Origin: a bacterium | GTDB taxonomy: Bacteria > Verrucomicrobiota > Verrucomicrobiia > Verrucomicrobiales > Akkermansiaceae | Reading direction: 5' to 3' | NCBI GenBank assembly: GCA_018222765.1 | Contig: JAAEZT010000035.1 | Span: forward strand, 1 to 34,442 | Length of the DNA stretch: 34,442 bases | In this document: positions 18,199 to 26,759 of the stretch, one piece after another | Layout: every line of letters begins with the position of its first letter | Numbering within the stretch: position 1 is the stretch's first letter | Made by a program: the position numbers and the translations under genes | The notes under the pieces: model-generated | What the model was told of the DNA's origin: nothing | Seen by the model: the letters and a program-made list of their open reading frames with translations, nothing else | Database searches by the model: none

Positions 18199-20874
18199 AT
18201 GAAAGTTCTCTTGGCGTTTCTTTTGTTGATCACCTCTGTGTGGGCGGCGATTCCCCGTCCTTTGGCGGGGCCGGTGCGGGACTTGCGCAAGGAAATCGAC
18301 TTTGAGCGGATCGGGGAATTTCACCTCGGGCCGACTGGAGCGATGGGCTGGATGCATGTCAGCCGTAATTCCATGACCCGTGAGGCGCGGCAGATCTTGA
18401 TCACCAAAGTCGAGCCCGGATGTCCGGCCGAGGGAGTGCTGGCGGAGGGCGATGTGATCCTGGGTATCAACGGAACGCCATTCTCGGGAGATCCTCGCAA
18501 AGCCTTGGGCCGGGCGATTGTAAATGCGGAGACGGAGAAAGAAGGCGGCCAGTTGAAGTTGATTCGTTGGCGTCAACTGGAAGGCACGAAAATGCGAAAA
18601 GGGAAAGAAGAGTCGGTTGTGGTTAAGTTGCCCGTGCTCGGGACGGTCGCTGCGACGACTCCATACAAGTGTGCCAAGTCCGCCCGCATTTTGGATCAGG
18701 CGGTGGCCCGCTTGCTTGAGCAAAAAGATTGGGGAAGATTCGGAGACAAGGCGCTGGCTCTGCTGGCGACGGGTGAGAAGAAATACTATCCCTTGGTGCG
18801 TGATTATCTTCACGCCGCTGATTTTGCAAAACCGGATTTTAAGATTAGCTTGGACGATGGTGGTCTGGTCTGTTGGAGATACGGTTATCACAACCTACTT
18901 CTCACCGAGTATTACCTCGCCACGGGGGACAAGTATGTTCTCCCGGCGATCCGCGAGTATGCCGTTAAGGTTTCCATGGGGCAAAGTAGCGCGGGAACCT
19001 GGGGACACGGCTTCGCGTGGAAGGTAACAAATGATGGCGAAATTCACGGCCGCCTCCGTGGTTACGGTGCGCTCAATCAAGCCGGGCTTCCGTGCTTTCT
19101 TTCGCTCATTCTTGCCAAGAAATGTGGCGTCGAGCATCCCGAGATTGATGATGCCATTGCGCGGGCTTCGCAATTCTTCGAATGCTTCGTCGGTCACGGA
19201 TCGATCGGGTATGGCTTTCATCGACCCAGTCTTGAGATTCATGCCAATGGCAGTAACGGAATGTCAGGGAACGGAAAGAATGGCATCGCAGCAGTCGCCT
19301 TTCGCGTGCTCGAAAAAGAGAACGCCACACGCTTCTTCTCGCGGCTTACGGCGTCGCTCGCGAATACCATGGAGTATGGCCATAGCGGAAATTCCTACAG
19401 TTACTTTTGGGATGTCCTCGGAGCGCATTGCGGAGGTCCGGAATTGGCGACGGCCTTTCTCAAAGAGATCGATTGGTATCATGCCCTAACGAGAAAGCCG
19501 GATGGTCGTTTTGTGTATCAACCGCTTGGAGGGATCTACGGGAAGGGGCTTCTCGATCCCACGGCGGCGCAGGTCCTCATCGCGACGATGCCTCGGCGGG
19601 CGCTCTTCCTTACCGGGAAGGAAATGGGGGAGAAGTCTTTGTTCAAAGCGAAGGAGATTTCGGAAACGATCGCAGCGGGACATTGGCGCTTGGCTGATCC
19701 CGACTCGCTGAGTGCGGGGGAATTGATTTCCAAGTTGGATTGCTGGTCGCCGATGGGGCGGGAGTGGATTGCCAAGCATCTTGCCACCAAGGAAGGGGAC
19801 TTTGTTCCGCGCTTGATCGAGCTACTCAAAAGCAACAAAGCGGAAGTCCGGGCCGGAGCGTGTTCGGCGCTGGGGTATCAGGGTGAGAAAGCTGGCGCGG
19901 CGGTGGATTTACTTGCGAAAGCTCTCACCGATGATCCCGTCGTGGCGATTCCGGCAAGCTACGCGCTGGCCCGGATCAGTAAGCCGGCGGCCAAAGTCAT
20001 GCCGGAGATTTTGCAGGCGATTCTGGATCGAAAAGAAGGCGGCGAGATGCGTCCCATTCATCAGGCTATGGCCTTTGGTTTGGGATACGATGCCGGTCGC
20101 ATTGCTCCGCTTTATTTCGACGGACTTCTTCCCGGTTTGGCCAAGGATGGAAATCCTTTGGAGGGCGTTGATCGCAAGCTCTTGCATCCCGCTTTGGCAA
20201 AACTTCTCAAAGATCCCAGCGGTCGGACTCGTGGCGGTGCCGCTTATGCCTTTGCGCATTTCACCCGCGACGATCTCGCGGCGATGGCCCAGGAAGTCTA
20301 CGACGCCATCACGAAGCCCGCGCCGCACTACCGCATGTTCAGTGATGATGCCCGGCAGCAGGCTCTGACTCTCTTGCTGAAATATCGCATCGCGGAGGGC
20401 ATTCCATTGGCGATTGATTCCCTAGATCTCAAAGATTGGGGTTCTGGGATGCGGTTTCCTCATCGTTGGGAAACACTGAAGGGTTATGGAGGAAACGCGA
20501 AGTCCTACCTTCCCCAGCTGCGGGCCTTGCGTGACGGGTTTAAGGAAGGGAACGAGAATCGCAAGTCGCTCGATGAAGTGATCGCGACGATCGAAAAAGA
20601 TCAAAGCCCTCCCGCTTTGGTTAGTCTGCACGCGCTCGTCGACGAAAAGGTGGCGCGCGATCTAGCCGTGTTTGAGAGCAAGGAACTCGAAGTGACGGCT
20701 TGTCGCTCTCTAATCAAAGAAAGCACGGGCCAGCCGTTTTATCAGGCTGCCTGTCTGCGACGTTTGGTGTCTCTCGAGGGAAAGAAGGCCCGCAAGGATG
20801 TCGAGCAAGCATCGAAGTCAGATGACGAGATTCTTCGCAAGGCTGCGGAACTGCTTCGGCCGGGGGCGAAGTGA
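18199..20874 (+). CDS. Secreted PDZ / DUF6288 / HEAT-repeat protein
   Basis: This 891-residue protein has a signal peptide (residues 1-17). The region to about 130 contains a PDZ domain (EPGCPAEGVLAEGDVILGINGTPFS, 72-96). A central alpha-rich domain of about 350 residues follows, with conserved-looking GYGFHRPSLEIHANGSNG (near 340) and HSGNSYSYFWDV (near 395) segments, matching DUF6288. From about 534 there are HEAT-type repeats (FVPRLIELLKSNKAEVRAG, then AVDLLAKALTDDPVVAIPA). The order PDZ-DUF6288-HEAT is a known architecture in Verrucomicrobiota and Planctomycetota, but its activity is not established. Repeated His/Tyr/Trp in the middle domain could suit an enzyme or a glycan-binding alpha barrel. 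It ends the plus-strand cluster. Confidence 0.88.
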   Translation: MKVLLAFLLLITSVWAAIPRPLAGPVRDLRKEIDFERIGEFHLGPTGAMGWMHVSRNSMTREARQILITKVEPGCPAEGVLAEGDVILGINGTPFSGDPRKALGRAIVNAETEKEGGQLKLIRWRQLEGTKMRKGKEESVVVKLPVLGTVAATTPYKCAKSARILDQAVARLLEQKDWGRFGDKALALLATGEKKYYPLVRDYLHAADFAKPDFKISLDDGGLVCWRYGYHNLLLTEYYLATGDKYVLPAIREYAVKVSMGQSSAGTWGHGFAWKVTNDGEIHGRLRGYGALNQAGLPCFLSLILAKKCGVEHPEIDDAIARASQFFECFVGHGSIGYGFHRPSLEIHANGSNGMSGNGKNGIAAVAFRVLEKENATRFFSRLTASLANTMEYGHSGNSYSYFWDVLGAHCGGPELATAFLKEIDWYHALTRKPDGRFVYQPLGGIYGKGLLDPTAAQVLIATMPRRALFLTGKEMGEKSLFKAKEISETIAAGHWRLADPDSLSAGELISKLDCWSPMGREWIAKHLATKEGDFVPRLIELLKSNKAEVRAGACSALGYQGEKAGAAVDLLAKALTDDPVVAIPASYALARISKPAAKVMPEILQAILDRKEGGEMRPIHQAMAFGLGYDAGRIAPLYFDGLLPGLAKDGNPLEGVDRKLLHPALAKLLKDPSGRTRGGAAYAFAHFTRDDLAAMAQEVYDAITKPAPHYRMFSDDARQQALTLLLKYRIAEGIPLAIDSLDLKDWGSGMRFPHRWETLKGYGGNAKSYLPQLRALRDGFKEGNENRKSLDEVIATIEKDQSPPALVSLHALVDEKVARDLAVFESKELEVTACRSLIKESTGQPFYQAACLRRLVSLEGKKARKDVEQASKSDDEILRKAAELLRPGAK

Positions 20875-20928: not shown

Positions 20929-20957
20929 TTGCTCTGTCGTGATTTTTTTTGTATGTT
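20929..20957 (+). promoter_or_regulatory. Possible sigma-70 promoter for PEP-CTERM gene
   Basis: TTGCTC at 20929-20934 and TATGTT at 20952-20957 are separated by 17 bases, including a run of eight T. This lies 58 bases before the ATG at 21015. The -10 box matches four of six consensus bases, so the call is tentative. Confidence 0.3.
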
Positions 20958-21014
20958 TCGAACCATATTTGGTATGTCTTAAGAGGTATCCAGTCATTTC
21001 CACCCCATTTCAAA

Positions 21015-21728
21015 ATGAATTCCAGATCCTACTTCGTCTCTCTTTCCGCGCTCGCTCTGATGAGCGTTCCCACCTACGCAGCCGTGATTGCTTCGACGAC
21101 CTTCGACGGGCAAACGATTGCCGGTAATACCGCCTCTGATTTGGGATGGGTCCTCAACGGCGTTGATGACCCCGGAAATATGCCTGCGTTCAATGCGGCT
21201 GCTGCCCCGCAAAACTTGTTCAACGCAAATGCCTTGGTTCAAAACATTTTCATTCCCGGGATCAACGTCGGCAACGGCAATACTTTCTGGACGACCGATG
21301 TTTCACTGACCGTGTCTGCTGGTTCGACCGTGACCCTCACCGATGTGACCTTCAACTCGGTTTCTGTTAATGGAGGACAGGCTGAAAACGTCAATCGACG
21401 AAATGACTACACAGTTTTCCTGTTTAGCCCCTTGAATGGAGTCACCCCGGTCGCCGAAGTGACGGTTGCCGACACGCTAGCCGGGACCGTCGCGGGACAG
21501 CCGTTGGTCACGCTGGACCTCGCCGACACGGCCCTTACTGATGTGGGAACCTACACTCTGCGCATCAAGGGCGGCGACTTCAGCGGCTTAGACGAAACCG
21601 GTAACCACGCCGGGATCAACAATCTCTCGATTAATGGAGACGTCTCATCTATTCCCGAGCCCTCTGCTCTCTTGCTCGGTGGCTTGGGTTTCCTGACTCT
21701 TCTGCGTCGTCGCCGCTCCGGAATTTAA
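21015..21728 (+). CDS. PEP-CTERM sorting-signal protein, beta-rich
   Basis: This 237-residue secreted protein has a signal peptide (residues 1-22, ending PTYA). The end is a full PEP-CTERM anchor: PEPSALLLGG, a hydrophobic helix and RRRRSGI. Such anchors are processed by exosortase in bacteria that make exopolysaccharide. The body is beta-rich, beginning ASTTFDGQTIAGNTASDLGW and containing VSAGSTVTLTDVTFNSVSV, and looks like a jelly-roll or discoidin-like surface domain. The ATG at 21015 is preferred because the upstream in-frame ATG at 20949 adds 22 residues that spoil the signal peptide. The next gene encodes a close paralogue without the PEP-CTERM tail. No exosortase gene is in the window. 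Confidence 0.9.
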   Translation: MNSRSYFVSLSALALMSVPTYAAVIASTTFDGQTIAGNTASDLGWVLNGVDDPGNMPAFNAAAAPQNLFNANALVQNIFIPGINVGNGNTFWTTDVSLTVSAGSTVTLTDVTFNSVSVNGGQAENVNRRNDYTVFLFSPLNGVTPVAEVTVADTLAGTVAGQPLVTLDLADTALTDVGTYTLRIKGGDFSGLDETGNHAGINNLSINGDVSSIPEPSALLLGGLGFLTLLRRRRSGI

Positions 21729-21852: not shown

Positions 21853-22773
21853 ATGAATTCCAAAATCTGCTTCTTCCGTTCCACTGCACTCGCTTTCCTT
21901 TCGGCCAATCTTGTTAATGGCGAGACGATCGCTTCGACAACATTTGATGGGCAAACCCTCAACGGGAACACCGCCTCGGATTTGGGCTGGACTCTCAATG
22001 GCGTTGAGGATCCGGGTGAGATGTCCGCCTTTGTTCAAGACAGTGGAAACGCTCAAAACTTATTCAATTCGAACGATTTCAATAAGAATCAATTTGCGCC
22101 TCAAATCAACGTTGGTAATGGGAATACCTGGTGGCGGACTTCCGTCAACCTCACCGTGTCAGCGGGAAGTTCGGTCACCCTGACAGAGGTGAGTTTTGAT
22201 CATTGGTCGTTGAATGCTGGAGGAGTTCAAAACGTCGGGCGGAGATCCGACTTCACCATTACTCTCTACGATCCTACTGATGCTGTTGTAGGGACCGCTT
22301 CGATTCTTGATGTGGCAAATGGCCAACCTCTCACTCCCGCCGGGTCCCCGACCCCTGTGTCGCTGATATTTGCCGTTCCGATTCCGCTGAGTGCACCTGG
22401 GACATACCGCCTCGAAATCGATGGTGGTGAACTCGGAGGTGCTGATGAAACGGGCAACCATGCCGGGTTCGATAATCTCGCAATCATCGGTTCGACCGGC
22501 CCCAGTGTTTCCTTTGCCATCACCGAGCTTGAATACGATCCCAGCGGAGATCCGGGCCCAACAGTGACCCTGACTTGGACCAAGACGGGAGCGGCGTCCT
22601 ACTCTGTTTTTTACTCCTTCGATCTGATCGATTGGGGTGCTGATTTAGATGACAGCGTTTTGCTGGAAAGTGATGAGAATCCTGAAGACGCTGACCAGAT
22701 GACCGTAACGTTTCCGCTAGTCGGCCCGCTGGAGAGCGCACCTGGTGTCTTCTTCCGCGTTGAAGACAACTAG
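21853..22773 (+). CDS. Secreted paralogue of the PEP-CTERM protein with a different C-terminal domain
   Basis: This 306-residue protein has a signal peptide (residues 1-23). Residues 24-215 align along their length with the preceding gene: ASTTFDGQTLNGNTASDLGW, INVGNGNTWW, VSAGSSVTLTEVSFDH and DETGNHAGFDNLAI all have direct counterparts there. Instead of a PEP-CTERM helix, residues 216-306 form a separate beta domain with the pattern YSVFYSFDLIDWGADLDD ... GVFFRVED. That pattern is a recurrent C-terminal module in Verrucomicrobiota surface proteins. The pair therefore looks like a tandem duplication followed by exchange of the terminal domain. The genes are 124 bases apart, so the second may have its own promoter. 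Function is unknown; cell-surface or secreted location is likely. Confidence 0.88.
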   Translation: MNSKICFFRSTALAFLSANLVNGETIASTTFDGQTLNGNTASDLGWTLNGVEDPGEMSAFVQDSGNAQNLFNSNDFNKNQFAPQINVGNGNTWWRTSVNLTVSAGSSVTLTEVSFDHWSLNAGGVQNVGRRSDFTITLYDPTDAVVGTASILDVANGQPLTPAGSPTPVSLIFAVPIPLSAPGTYRLEIDGGELGGADETGNHAGFDNLAIIGSTGPSVSFAITELEYDPSGDPGPTVTLTWTKTGAASYSVFYSFDLIDWGADLDDSVLLESDENPEDADQMTVTFPLVGPLESAPGVFFRVEDN

Positions 22774-23821: not shown

Positions 23822-24814
23822 TTAATTAGGATTCCTAGCCGGTTTCACCGGCCCGATATGGGCCATGGCTTTAACACCACCGACAACGAAGTATCCCAAG
23901 GGCTTATCATCCTTGTCCGTAATCAACCAGACATGGCCGGCAAAAGTCTGCTGCGGCCTGCGCTCACCGGACTGCATTTCTCCATACAGCTCATTTTCCT
24001 CTCCCTCAACATACCAGTATTTGACCGCTTTCTTTAAATCATTCTGAAATACGATCCATACCTCCTTGTCGCCGCGGGAACGAGGCAGCGCTTCCCTCGT
24101 CGTGTAAGGAAAGAAGGTCAGCTTGTTGGACTTCAGCACTTTCATCGACTGTTCGTATTCGGCCAACGTTTTCTCAAATTCCTCGTCGTCAACCGGGCCA
24201 ATCTTCTGGAATGCAAACTTGGCTCGAAACACCGGTTTTCCATTCTCTGTCACCTGCATCTTGCCCTTTCCATGACCGTCTTTACCCTGATTACGAATAT
24301 ACCTGACCGAAACTCCGGGGGGCATTGACGGAGCAACAGCTCGGTGATAGTCCCGACCGGTTATGGGATCCGAGTAAACATGTGTTGTTCGTTCGGAACC
24401 GTCAGTAGCGGCATATTGCATTACAAACAGTCCCAGTTGCTCGTCATAGTGAATTTTGGATCGGTATAAGGTTTTTTGGTTCTTATCTTCAAAACGCCCA
24501 ACGATTTCGGCAGCAATTTCCCCGTCAACCATGCGTGCCTGCCAGCTGTCTCGCGTGGCAGTCTGCTCTCCACCTACCGGTCCCATCGTCCCTTTTCCCT
24601 GAAACTTGCCAAGACCCCGCGTTAGGCTTTCCCGAGCCTGCTGGGGCGTCAGCTTCTTATTTGGAAAATCCGGGATCTCCTCATTTTGGTAAACTAGAGC
24701 AGCCACGGGATCGGCAGAAATCTCCGGAACTTCCTGACCTGAAGCACCGATAATCAACATCAACAGGCTGACCACAGCCCCGAGGTAATTCAATTTAGTT
24801 ATTTTCATTTTCAA
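23822..24814 (-). CDS. Secreted protein with von Hippel-Lindau-like beta domain
   Basis: This 330-residue protein has a signal peptide (residues 1-26, ending IIGASG). Residues about 58-205 form a beta-rich domain reminiscent of DUF1579 or lipocalin-like proteins (RGLGKFQGKGTMG, DGEIAAEIVGRF). A helical linker with EEFEKTLAEYEQSMK follows. Residues 250-313 strongly resemble the VHL beta domain (PF01847): WIVFQNDLKKAVKYWYVEGE (253-272), the tyrosine-containing turn LYGEMQSGE, then QQTFAGHVWLITDKDD. These correspond in order to the N, W, G, Y and H-x-W-L positions of VHL. VHL is best known as the eukaryotic HIF-recognition protein; bacterial copies are probably generic protein- or peptide-binding domains. 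The gene is preceded by repeat copy C and stands alone. Confidence 0.82.
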   Translation of the reverse strand: MKMKITKLNYLGAVVSLLMLIIGASGQEVPEISADPVAALVYQNEEIPDFPNKKLTPQQARESLTRGLGKFQGKGTMGPVGGEQTATRDSWQARMVDGEIAAEIVGRFEDKNQKTLYRSKIHYDEQLGLFVMQYAATDGSERTTHVYSDPITGRDYHRAVAPSMPPGVSVRYIRNQGKDGHGKGKMQVTENGKPVFRAKFAFQKIGPVDDEEFEKTLAEYEQSMKVLKSNKLTFFPYTTREALPRSRGDKEVWIVFQNDLKKAVKYWYVEGEENELYGEMQSGERRPQQTFAGHVWLITDKDDKPLGYFVVGGVKAMAHIGPVKPARNPN

Positions 24815-24916: not shown

Positions 24917-26395
24917 TTAATCCTTAGTCTTGGCTTTTTCGCGTTCAAGGCGGCGCGCTTCTGCTGGCTTGAGTCCGCCGTTTCGTTTTGGGATGAAATT
25001 GTCGGTCATGAAGGAGGAGGCAGGGAGCCCCTCGGCATTGAGAAGGCTCACTTCGGGATTGGGCGTGGGCTTTCGGAAAAGGTAGCGGACGTAGAGAGGT
25101 TTCGGGATGGCTTTACTTTGGACGACAACGGTGTCGCCCTCGATGTGGGCTTCTGCGGGGGCATACTTGCCATCGGCTCCGGCGAGTTCGAAGAACTTTA
25201 ACATTTTGTCCCCGCTCTTGCTGACGAGGCCTCCGCCCACGTGATGAAAACTGAGAGTGGCTTTGTCGCCTTCGATTGTGACTTTGTCGAGTAGGGGTCC
25301 GGATGGAACGATATCCTTGCGCTCGTATTCATTGGCGAGGGCGAGGAGGGCGAGGCGTTGGCCGAAGGGTTCTTTATTTTCCGGGTGGAGGCTGGGTCCG
25401 TGATCGTAACAGACGGCCATGCCGGTGTTTTCGGTGAGATCCAGGGTCCGGCGCATGCGATCTCTCAACCAAGGCCACTCGCCGGTTGTCGGGGATTCCT
25501 GGGTGGGGACCTGAATATAATAAAAAGGAAAGGAAAGTGGATCGAGTTTGGCGTGTTTGGCCCAGAGATCACGCCAAGCCTTGATATGAAAGGCGAGGAG
25601 TTGGTCGTATTCGTAGCCCGTTTCGGATTTGGCATTTCGTTCGCCCTGATACCAAATCACGCCTCGAAAGGCGAAGGGGACGATGGGTGCGATTTTCTCG
25701 TCGAATTGGAATCCCGGTGATCGGGGTTCCTTGTCTTGCGGGTCACGCCAGTTCCCGGGGATCTTGAGTTTGGTCCGAATTTTTTCTGCTGCTTCCTTCG
25801 GCATCCACGCTTGGATTGGGGTCCCGGAATTGTAGCGGGTGATGAGGCCGACCGGGACATCGAGTTCGTGATAAAGATCTTTTCCGAAATAGTAGGCAAC
25901 CATCGAGAGTCTGTTCTGGCTTTTGTGGGAAACGGTATCCCAGCCTTTGTTGTGGCCGTTGAATCGGAAGCGTGAGTAGTCCGCCTCGAAGTCCTTCGGG
26001 TTGATCCGTCTTCCTTTGCTTTCAGTAAAGGTTCCCGCCATGTTTGACTGGCCGCTACAGAGCCAGACTTCGCCCACGAGGACATTCTTAAGGGAAATTT
26101 CATTGGTGCCTTTGATGGTGAGTGTCTGTTTGTCCCGGGAGGTTTCGAGGGGGCCGAGTTTGAGGAGCCATTGACCCTCCGCGTCGGCCTTTCCTGATAC
26201 GCTTTGGCCAGCGAAAGATACGGTGACAATTTCGCCTGGGTTGGCCGTGCCCCAAACTGGCACTGGCATTTCTCGCTGGAGAACCATGTTATCACCAAAG
26301 ATGGCAGGTAACTTGATGTCGCCGTGAGTCTGTCCGGAACCAGCAACAGCGATTATCAGGACGATTGCAGGAATTAATTTTAATGGATTATTCAT
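24917..26395 (-). CDS. Secreted sialate O-acetylesterase family carbohydrate esterase
   Basis: This 492-residue protein is cut from its ATG at 26395, which gives a signal peptide (IPAIVLIIAVAGSGQTHG). An in-frame ATG 120 bases upstream would precede it with an unlikely tail. After a beta domain (PAIFGDNMVLQREMPVPVWG at 30-49) comes the SGNH-type esterase core. The nucleophile motif is GQSNM (Ser117), WYQGERN (248-254) is the second conserved block, and LHPENK carries the probable catalytic His337. The length fits the sialate O-acetylesterase/DUF303 family. In environmental bacteria such enzymes usually remove acetyl groups from hemicellulose, pectin or other glycans and not from sialic acid. 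It lies upstream of the VHL-like gene with 102 bases and a repeat between them. Confidence 0.93.
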   Translation of the reverse strand: MNNPLKLIPAIVLIIAVAGSGQTHGDIKLPAIFGDNMVLQREMPVPVWGTANPGEIVTVSFAGQSVSGKADAEGQWLLKLGPLETSRDKQTLTIKGTNEISLKNVLVGEVWLCSGQSNMAGTFTESKGRRINPKDFEADYSRFRFNGHNKGWDTVSHKSQNRLSMVAYYFGKDLYHELDVPVGLITRYNSGTPIQAWMPKEAAEKIRTKLKIPGNWRDPQDKEPRSPGFQFDEKIAPIVPFAFRGVIWYQGERNAKSETGYEYDQLLAFHIKAWRDLWAKHAKLDPLSFPFYYIQVPTQESPTTGEWPWLRDRMRRTLDLTENTGMAVCYDHGPSLHPENKEPFGQRLALLALANEYERKDIVPSGPLLDKVTIEGDKATLSFHHVGGGLVSKSGDKMLKFFELAGADGKYAPAEAHIEGDTVVVQSKAIPKPLYVRYLFRKPTPNPEVSLLNAEGLPASSFMTDNFIPKRNGGLKPAEARRLEREKAKTKD

Positions 26396-26759
26396 TTTCT
26401 TTCTTTGTGCCACGCCTTTGGCCCAGAGTGTGAGGTGGATGGGTAAAACCCAGGTTGTCGATTTTACGATCAGGGGTTGTATCGGAGGGTATGCTGGCGG
26501 GCGCTCTTCTCGCACTCATTGGTGATCGTCCGTTTTCTATCCATGCTTCGGGTTTGTTCCGCATGGTGTTGATGCGATCTCGGTGTTCCGGCGCCTCAAT
26601 CAGGTTCTTAAGGGGATTGGTTGAAGGGCCTAAAATGTGGCAAGCGTGCGATCTTCCAAGCTTAAAATCGATGGTGCCCGGTGTGGTCGGGCAAAGAAAT
26701 AGCCCTGTGGGATAAAGTCTCCACAGGGCTTGGTTTAAATGGAGTTCTTTGGTGTCGGA
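26396..26759. other. Intergenic region without a supported gene
   Basis: I see no credible gene here. An 86-codon plus-strand frame (26455-26715) has no recognisable domain and runs into a terminator, so it is not called. A small TGCCCG/CGGGCA hairpin at 26675-26693 stands beside the terminator at 26692-26730. The part near 26396-26460 should hold the promoter of the esterase gene, but no box is clear. Confidence 0.5.
26692..26730 (-). terminator. Terminator of the DUF5684 gene
   Basis: A perfect 10-base stem AGCCCTGTGG/CCACAGGGCT (26701-26710 with 26721-26730, loop 10 bases) lies 30 bases past the stop of the minus-strand gene. On that strand it is followed by ATTTCTTT. Confidence 0.8.

Follow-up and report, generated by a model that had tools for sequence, protein, structure and literature searches.

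Within the window, i.e. the whole stretch of 34,442 nucleotides of an Akkermansiaceae contig that was analysed here, a gene on the minus strand (23822..24814, stop included; taken from the ORF list with its translation) encodes a protein of 330 amino acids, P0001. The open reading frame was found to be real in an ORF check of that strand; its start codon is TTG, the alternative being an in-frame ATG two codons downstream (residue 3). The protein begins like a signal peptide and continues with two domains, the first some 200 residues long and the C-terminal one about 84. Residues 1–26 (24737..24814, minus strand) form a probable signal peptide, recognized by eye from a basic start, a hydrophobic stretch and the sequence ASG-Q, with a predicted helix at residues 2–24, and export of P0001 out of the cytoplasm is plausible from these features. 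They are followed by an N-terminal domain with no assigned family (residues 27–235; 24110..24736, minus strand) and by a VHL-type beta domain (residues 242–325; 23840..24091, minus strand), which was delimited by profile search, AlphaFold2 prediction and PDB structure comparison.

An ortholog (L006) of 85% identity over the full length is present in a congener (genome G130). In the window, a sialate O-acetylesterase-like (SASA) gene (24917–26515, minus strand) precedes the VHL gene in the same orientation, at a distance of 102 bases; in G130 its place is taken by a sulfatase-like gene, as read from the sequence by eye. The upstream neighbour is therefore not conserved, and an operon logic for the window gene was dropped. 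On the plus strand, 18199–20874 encodes a protein of 891 amino acids with a PDZ domain, DUF6288 and HEAT repeats according to a Pfam scan, and two tandem genes (20949–21728 and 21853–22773) encode proteins that are alike by eye, the first ending in a PEP-CTERM motif and the second being without a match in the Pfam scan.

The N-terminal domain was not assigned to any family in a Pfam scan at E 10. The sequence-only reading had labelled it DUF1579-like (PF07617), a label which was withdrawn, as this family gave no match at E 10 and none in the window's genome. The structural model of the domain, an antiparallel beta meander with flanking helices, is of low confidence (pLDDT 48.5), and its best structural match, at Z 6.1, is not evidence of a fold. 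The best matches of this low-confidence model (Z ≤ 6.1) were mostly beta-rich, several of them barrels, and included nitrobindin and crustacyanin at Z 4.4–5.0; a lipocalin-like barrel is possible on the model. The pairing of the two domains had been called unusual, and it was indeed found in just two genomes of the 145 searched in the family, namely the window's own and G130. With the N-terminal part as the query, a search of 288 phylum genomes returned the window's own genome and a candidate second relative in genome G565, which was rejected as an antisense artefact.

The motifs expected of a VHL beta domain are present in the C-terminal domain in the order claimed for them, namely FQN (256–258), YWYVEG (266–271), LYG (276–278), SGE (282–284) and TFAGHVWLITD (290–300). 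The Pfam model itself disappointed: P0001 scored 14.4 bits (E 0.04) in the PF01847 HMM check, short of the gathering cut-off of 21; the genome search gave it 16.7 bits, and the ortholog scored 16.5 bits, both again below 21. It is because of this score that P0001 is not filed as a Pfam-called member of the family. Together with a phmmer search of P0001 against the PDB, which returned nothing at E 10, the sub-threshold score is what speaks for a chance or convergent resemblance without homology. Against this stands a profile of 66 non-redundant VHL domains of bacteria from which P0001 and its ortholog were excluded; the domain sets were drawn from loci of the window's genome and of the family, class and phylum genomes. 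P0001 scored 65.6 bits with this profile and the best of 2000 shuffled versions of P0001 reached 6.6 bits, and chance resemblance was rejected on this comparison. A second profile of 56 bacterial domains, into which the window domain was taken, was searched against all PDB sequences and gave 24 matches at E ≤ 1, all 24 of them pVHL, with a best E-value of 1.3e-13.

Structural comparison weighs in the same direction. The AlphaFold2 model (39 sequences) reached block pLDDT values of 91–95 over residues 251–320 and contains seven strands in this region, and the predicted seven-stranded beta sandwich superposes on pVHL as anticipated, the comparison being that of a model and not of an experimental structure. 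In a Foldseek search against the PDB, the best 50 matches listed were all pVHL entries (best E 1.6e-5). A second structural alignment gave, among the matches listed, Z values up to 11.7 over 84–88 residues, with model residues 242–329 placed on pVHL residues 62–160, the 11.7 referring to pVHL 62–156; the values were 11.3 for PDB 1LM8, 11.1 for 1VCB and 11.4 for 4AWJ. A resemblance without common descent is hence very improbable, and on the sequence and model evidence the window domain belongs by descent to the VHL beta-domain superfamily and is genuinely related to the hydroxyproline-recognising part of human VHL. The structural matches listed span human pVHL 60–160 at most and stop short of the alpha domain. 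The elongin C-binding alpha domain is absent from P0001, which ends five residues past the beta domain, and a role as a pVHL-type ubiquitin-ligase receptor was rejected, since the C-terminal alpha domain for elongin C is missing.

Bacterial VHL domains were surveyed with PF01847 at E 0.01, which was found in 65 of 384 class genomes (64 above the cut-off) and in 25 of 387 phylum genomes (21 above the cut-off). The window's genome itself holds two further VHL domains above the cut-off, whose hosts are a sulfatase and a DPP-IV-like peptidase (L002). At 30 bits with the first profile, 82 loci were retained, L003 and L005 both being the window gene, and their hosts were labelled by a Pfam scan of prototypes and by BLAST to the prototypes with the VHL part masked. 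The hosts were 50 DPP-IV-like S9 peptidases, 9 sulfatases, 8 LRR proteins, 3 alpha/beta hydrolases, 2 HEAT proteins, 3 window-type proteins and 7 unclassified proteins, four of the latter showing an HExxH motif by eye ('zincin' group). The sequences closest to the VHL peptidase L028 among solved structures were those of dipeptidyl aminopeptidase IV (best E 2.5e-42). L043, L050, L059 and L061 combine an HExxH motif, as seen by eye, with a C-terminal VHL domain and may be a second kind of peptidase, and L052 and L085 are proteins of about 130 amino acids with a signal-peptide-like start and a lone VHL domain.

A species-wide scan (one genome each for 84,980 species) was performed with a pattern derived from the peptidase-borne domains, in which Thr at position 111, H115 and W117 were fixed. 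It returned 251 stretches, of which 248 were confirmed and 80 kept, all 80 on S9 peptidases; these motif-found loci were left out of the headline pocket counts given below. The taxa named for them include Verrucomicrobia, Planctomycetes, Chthonomonadales, Lentisphaerae and Sumerlaeota, and a few odd source labels (e.g. Klebsiella) look like mislabelled bins. VHL beta domains are thus widespread on secreted bacterial proteins, DPP-IV-like (S9) peptidases foremost.

The hydroxyproline site of human pVHL is formed by Trp88, Tyr98, His110, Ser111, His115 and Trp117; the bonds to the hydroxyl group of hydroxyproline are made by Ser111 and His115 (PMC9528729). At the level of residues, the aligned window domain appears to keep five of these six, the place of Trp88 being ambiguous. 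Trp88 is replaced by either W267, according to the profile alignment, or Y268, according to MAFFT (24011..24016, minus strand); in the domain alignments, Y277 (23984..23986, minus strand) corresponds to Tyr98, T290 (23945..23947, minus strand) to Ser111, H294 (23933..23935, minus strand) to His115 and W296 (23927..23929, minus strand) to Trp117. The position of His110 is occupied by Gln.

The same positions were counted in 49 distinct peptidase-borne domains, chosen without regard to the motif from 50 loci, identical domains being counted once. W88, Y98, S/T111 and H115 were each present in 49/49, W117 in 48/49 and H110 in 22/49, counts that carry some retrieval bias because the Pfam and protein searches behind L001–L088 favour VHL-like sequences. 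Weak Pfam loci were left out, L004 beforehand and L081–L084 and L088 for having no domain at 25 bits. Ranked by conservation, the 84 columns have all five of W88, Y98, S/T111, H115 and W117 in the first seven places (hypergeometric 4e-6 for five of the six central pocket residues in the top 7 columns).

Such conservation could also arise if the beta domain were a structural spacer or an intramolecular clamp with no external ligand, its pocket residues being kept for folding. W117 belongs to the aromatic core of pVHL together with F76, F119 and F136 (PMC3688787), and its conservation may therefore be structural. Other members of that core vary in the 49 peptidase-borne domains, the place of F76 being Phe in 36/49 and that of F119 in 3/49, whereas Y98, S/T111 and H115 are invariant; the placement of F136 is doubtful, as the column adjoining the assigned one is Phe in 27/49. 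Depending on the host, moreover, the domain is C-terminal, N-terminal or the sole domain, which also argues against a spacer, and we regard this explanation as unlikely.

Outside the peptidases the pocket is kept less uniformly. H115 is lost in 7/9 sulfatases, in 7/7 distinct LRR domains and in 3/3 alpha/beta hydrolases (esterase-like); it is kept in 4 HExxH, 2 HEAT, 2 window-type and 3 remaining domains. In the sulfatases, which carry the VHL domain C-terminally (L001, L008, L014, L022, L023, L024, L029, L033 and L087), His115 is replaced by Ala in seven of nine; L029 and L087 keep His, and their Tyr98 is Lys or Arg. As H115 is lost in most sulfatase, LRR and esterase-like copies, the VHL module can serve another ligand. 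The window domain might likewise keep the VHL fold and bind something other than hydroxyproline, be it a sugar, a partner protein or a hydroxylated ring of another kind; the copies without H115 probably do so. The wide range of hosts (sulfatase, LRR, HEAT, esterase-like), the loss of H115 in many of them and a window devoid of hydroxyproline genes all fit this explanation. It is countered by the equivalents of Y98, S/T111, H115 and W117, which the window domain keeps like the peptidase group and unlike the LRR proteins and most sulfatases, and we hold it to be possible, at clearly less than even odds.

If the domain reads hydroxyproline, its host genomes would be expected to use hydroxyproline. 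PF05544 (proline racemase / 4-hydroxyproline epimerase) was detected in 105 of 384 class genomes, with 40 of 65 VHL-positive genomes positive vs 65 of 319 VHL-negative ones (Fisher 1.5e-10, uncorrected for kinship and genome size). VHL and PF05544 were located within 10 kb of each other on one contig in 9 of the 40 genomes holding both. In the same 40 genomes, DPP-IV genes lay within 10 kb of PF05544 in 9/31 cases with VHL vs 0/24 without detected VHL (p 0.003), the latter defined by no PF01847 match at E 0.01, so that a few may carry a divergent copy. Six weak PF00930 matches (E 9e-8 to 7e-6), none of them within 10 kb of PF05544, were not counted, and VHL domains without an adjoining PF00930 match were within this distance in 0 of 21 cases in these genomes. 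Among 80 named genomes, PF05544 was present in 56, with a match that was weak and partial in four (G742, G753, G778 and G800), and lay within 10 kb of VHL in 6/56, three of these being repeats of class genomes; since 9 of the 80 named genomes equal class-sample genomes by contig coordinates, the two sets are not independent. That clustering occurs in a minority of genomes in both overlapping sets is evidence against hydroxyproline reading, as are the 0 of 21 just given, the loss of H115 in other hosts and, for the window domain, the lack of pathway genes in the window, Gln at His110, the ambiguous place of Trp88 and the Pfam score below the cut-off.

Twelve distinct clusters were compared by BLAST to the proteins of L181, which is itself counted among them. 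DAO was present in 11, a DHDPS-like enzyme in 10, aldehyde dehydrogenase in 5 and aminopeptidase P in 4, and all four pathway enzymes (epimerase, DAO, DHDPS-like enzyme and aldehyde dehydrogenase) in 5 of the 12 (L179, L180, L181, L182 and L217). The genes of L181 are arranged as epimerase, DAO, DHDPS-like enzyme, aldehyde dehydrogenase, aminopeptidase P (on the opposite strand) and VHL peptidase; Pfam and NCBIfam names agree with this, the five enzymes other than the VHL peptidase staying below their NCBIfam cut-offs. L-hydroxyproline is broken down in Streptomyces and others by way of an epimerase, a D-hydroxyproline dehydrogenase, a DHDPS-like deaminase and a ketoglutarate semialdehyde dehydrogenase (PMC6608401), and the cluster enzymes near VHL peptidases are those of this route. 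Locus L174 (G276:C46:36000-52000) holds a DHDPS-like gene, aminopeptidase P, hydroxyproline epimerase, VHL peptidase, a POT peptide transporter and DAO in about 9 kb. In the window's genome, a PF05544 gene adjoins a DAO-like gene on contig C15; the 19 kb examined around its VHL peptidase (contig C65) contained no pathway genes, and BLAST over the whole window gave no homolog of them.

With homology, predicted fold, pocket conservation and the gene clustering of peptidase-borne forms observed, the domain most likely acts through a pocket on its surface in which a peptide's 4-hydroxyproline residue is held. W267 or Y268, Y277 and W296 would surround the hydroxyproline ring as an aromatic cage, and T290 and H294 would bond the ring's hydroxyl group. 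On exported DPP-IV-like peptidases, the domain would supply the enzyme with hydroxyproline-containing peptides (from collagen or from the wall proteins of algae and plants). Homology, the peptidase hosts and the hydroxyproline-gene neighbours of some of them together suggest that the domain probably helps to catch such peptides, and we regard it as likely that the peptidase-borne domain holds the substrate's hydroxyprolyl residue and thereby concentrates or orients hydroxyproline-rich peptides for a proline-specific peptidase.

As a member without a peptidase domain, the window protein would bind such peptides outside the cytoplasm; no enzyme domain is recognised in it. It lacks pathway gene neighbours, and a role as reader of hydroxyprolyl peptides is for this reason deduced from its kept pocket. 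Export, ligand and delivery role, as well as their transfer to the window protein, are what we infer. Our preferred reading, an exported protein whose N-terminal domain is beta-rich and rare and whose C-terminal domain, of VHL type, binds hydroxyprolyl peptides as its human relative does, is given a probability of roughly 0.55. For hydroxyproline binding by the window protein as such, judged from sequence, the chances are about one half, a different ligand being the main rival.

More broadly, bacterial VHL may be a hydroxyproline-reading module, carried by exported peptidases specific for proline and by other secreted proteins, that bacteria use in foraging on collagen and other hydroxylated proteins, with the window protein as a peptidase-free member and animal VHL as one branch of an older widespread domain or derived from a shared source, a view for and against which the odds seem evenly balanced. 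Hydroxyproline recognition by VHL underlies oxygen sensing in animals and many PROTAC drugs. If the broader view is true, VHL would gain an evolutionary context and a natural role beyond the HIF pathway from bacterial homologs that share its pocket and are linked through their gene neighbourhoods to hydroxyproline catabolism, and existing VHL ligands would allow an immediate test of the bacterial module. In the open-access literature, to which the search extended, no report was found of a link between peptidase-borne VHL and hydroxyproline catabolism, nor, in the same literature, of a split between VHL groups keeping and losing H115.

That VHL domains occur in bacteria, one of them on a secreted protein, is already known (PMC9002001). 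The claim that P0001 is secreted, unlike the eukaryotic protein, stands as regards its probable location and missing alpha domain, though a secreted bacterial VHL protein was already in print. The latter, EMK97_00595 of Litorilituus sediminis, is likewise predicted to be secreted and carries a VHL beta domain at its C-terminus (131–212); it differs in being shorter and from the Colwelliaceae, and the cited part of that paper treats tumour suppression and proposes no hydroxyproline catabolism (PMC9002001). The L-hydroxyproline operon of Streptomyces coelicolor shares Pro_racemase, DAO and DHDPS-like genes with the surroundings of the VHL peptidases, whereas the genes listed for it include no VHL peptidase, and an M9 collagenase belongs to the regulon (PMC6608401). 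The DPP-IV-like (S9) VHL peptidases of Verrucomicrobia, Planctomycetes and Chthonomonadales (L028, L181 and L002) have in common with the window protein the homologous domain, the pocket and N-termini that are signal-peptide-like by eye; their DPPIV_N and Peptidase_S9 domains, and the hydroxyproline neighbours seen in some genomes, have no counterpart in the window protein. From the human pVHL beta domain (PF01847), finally, the window protein differs by the absence of the elongin C alpha domain, its probable export, an identity of about 21% and Gln in place of H110, and it resembles it in the predicted seven-stranded sandwich and in the equivalents of Y98, S111 (as Thr), H115 and W117, with an aromatic residue at W88.
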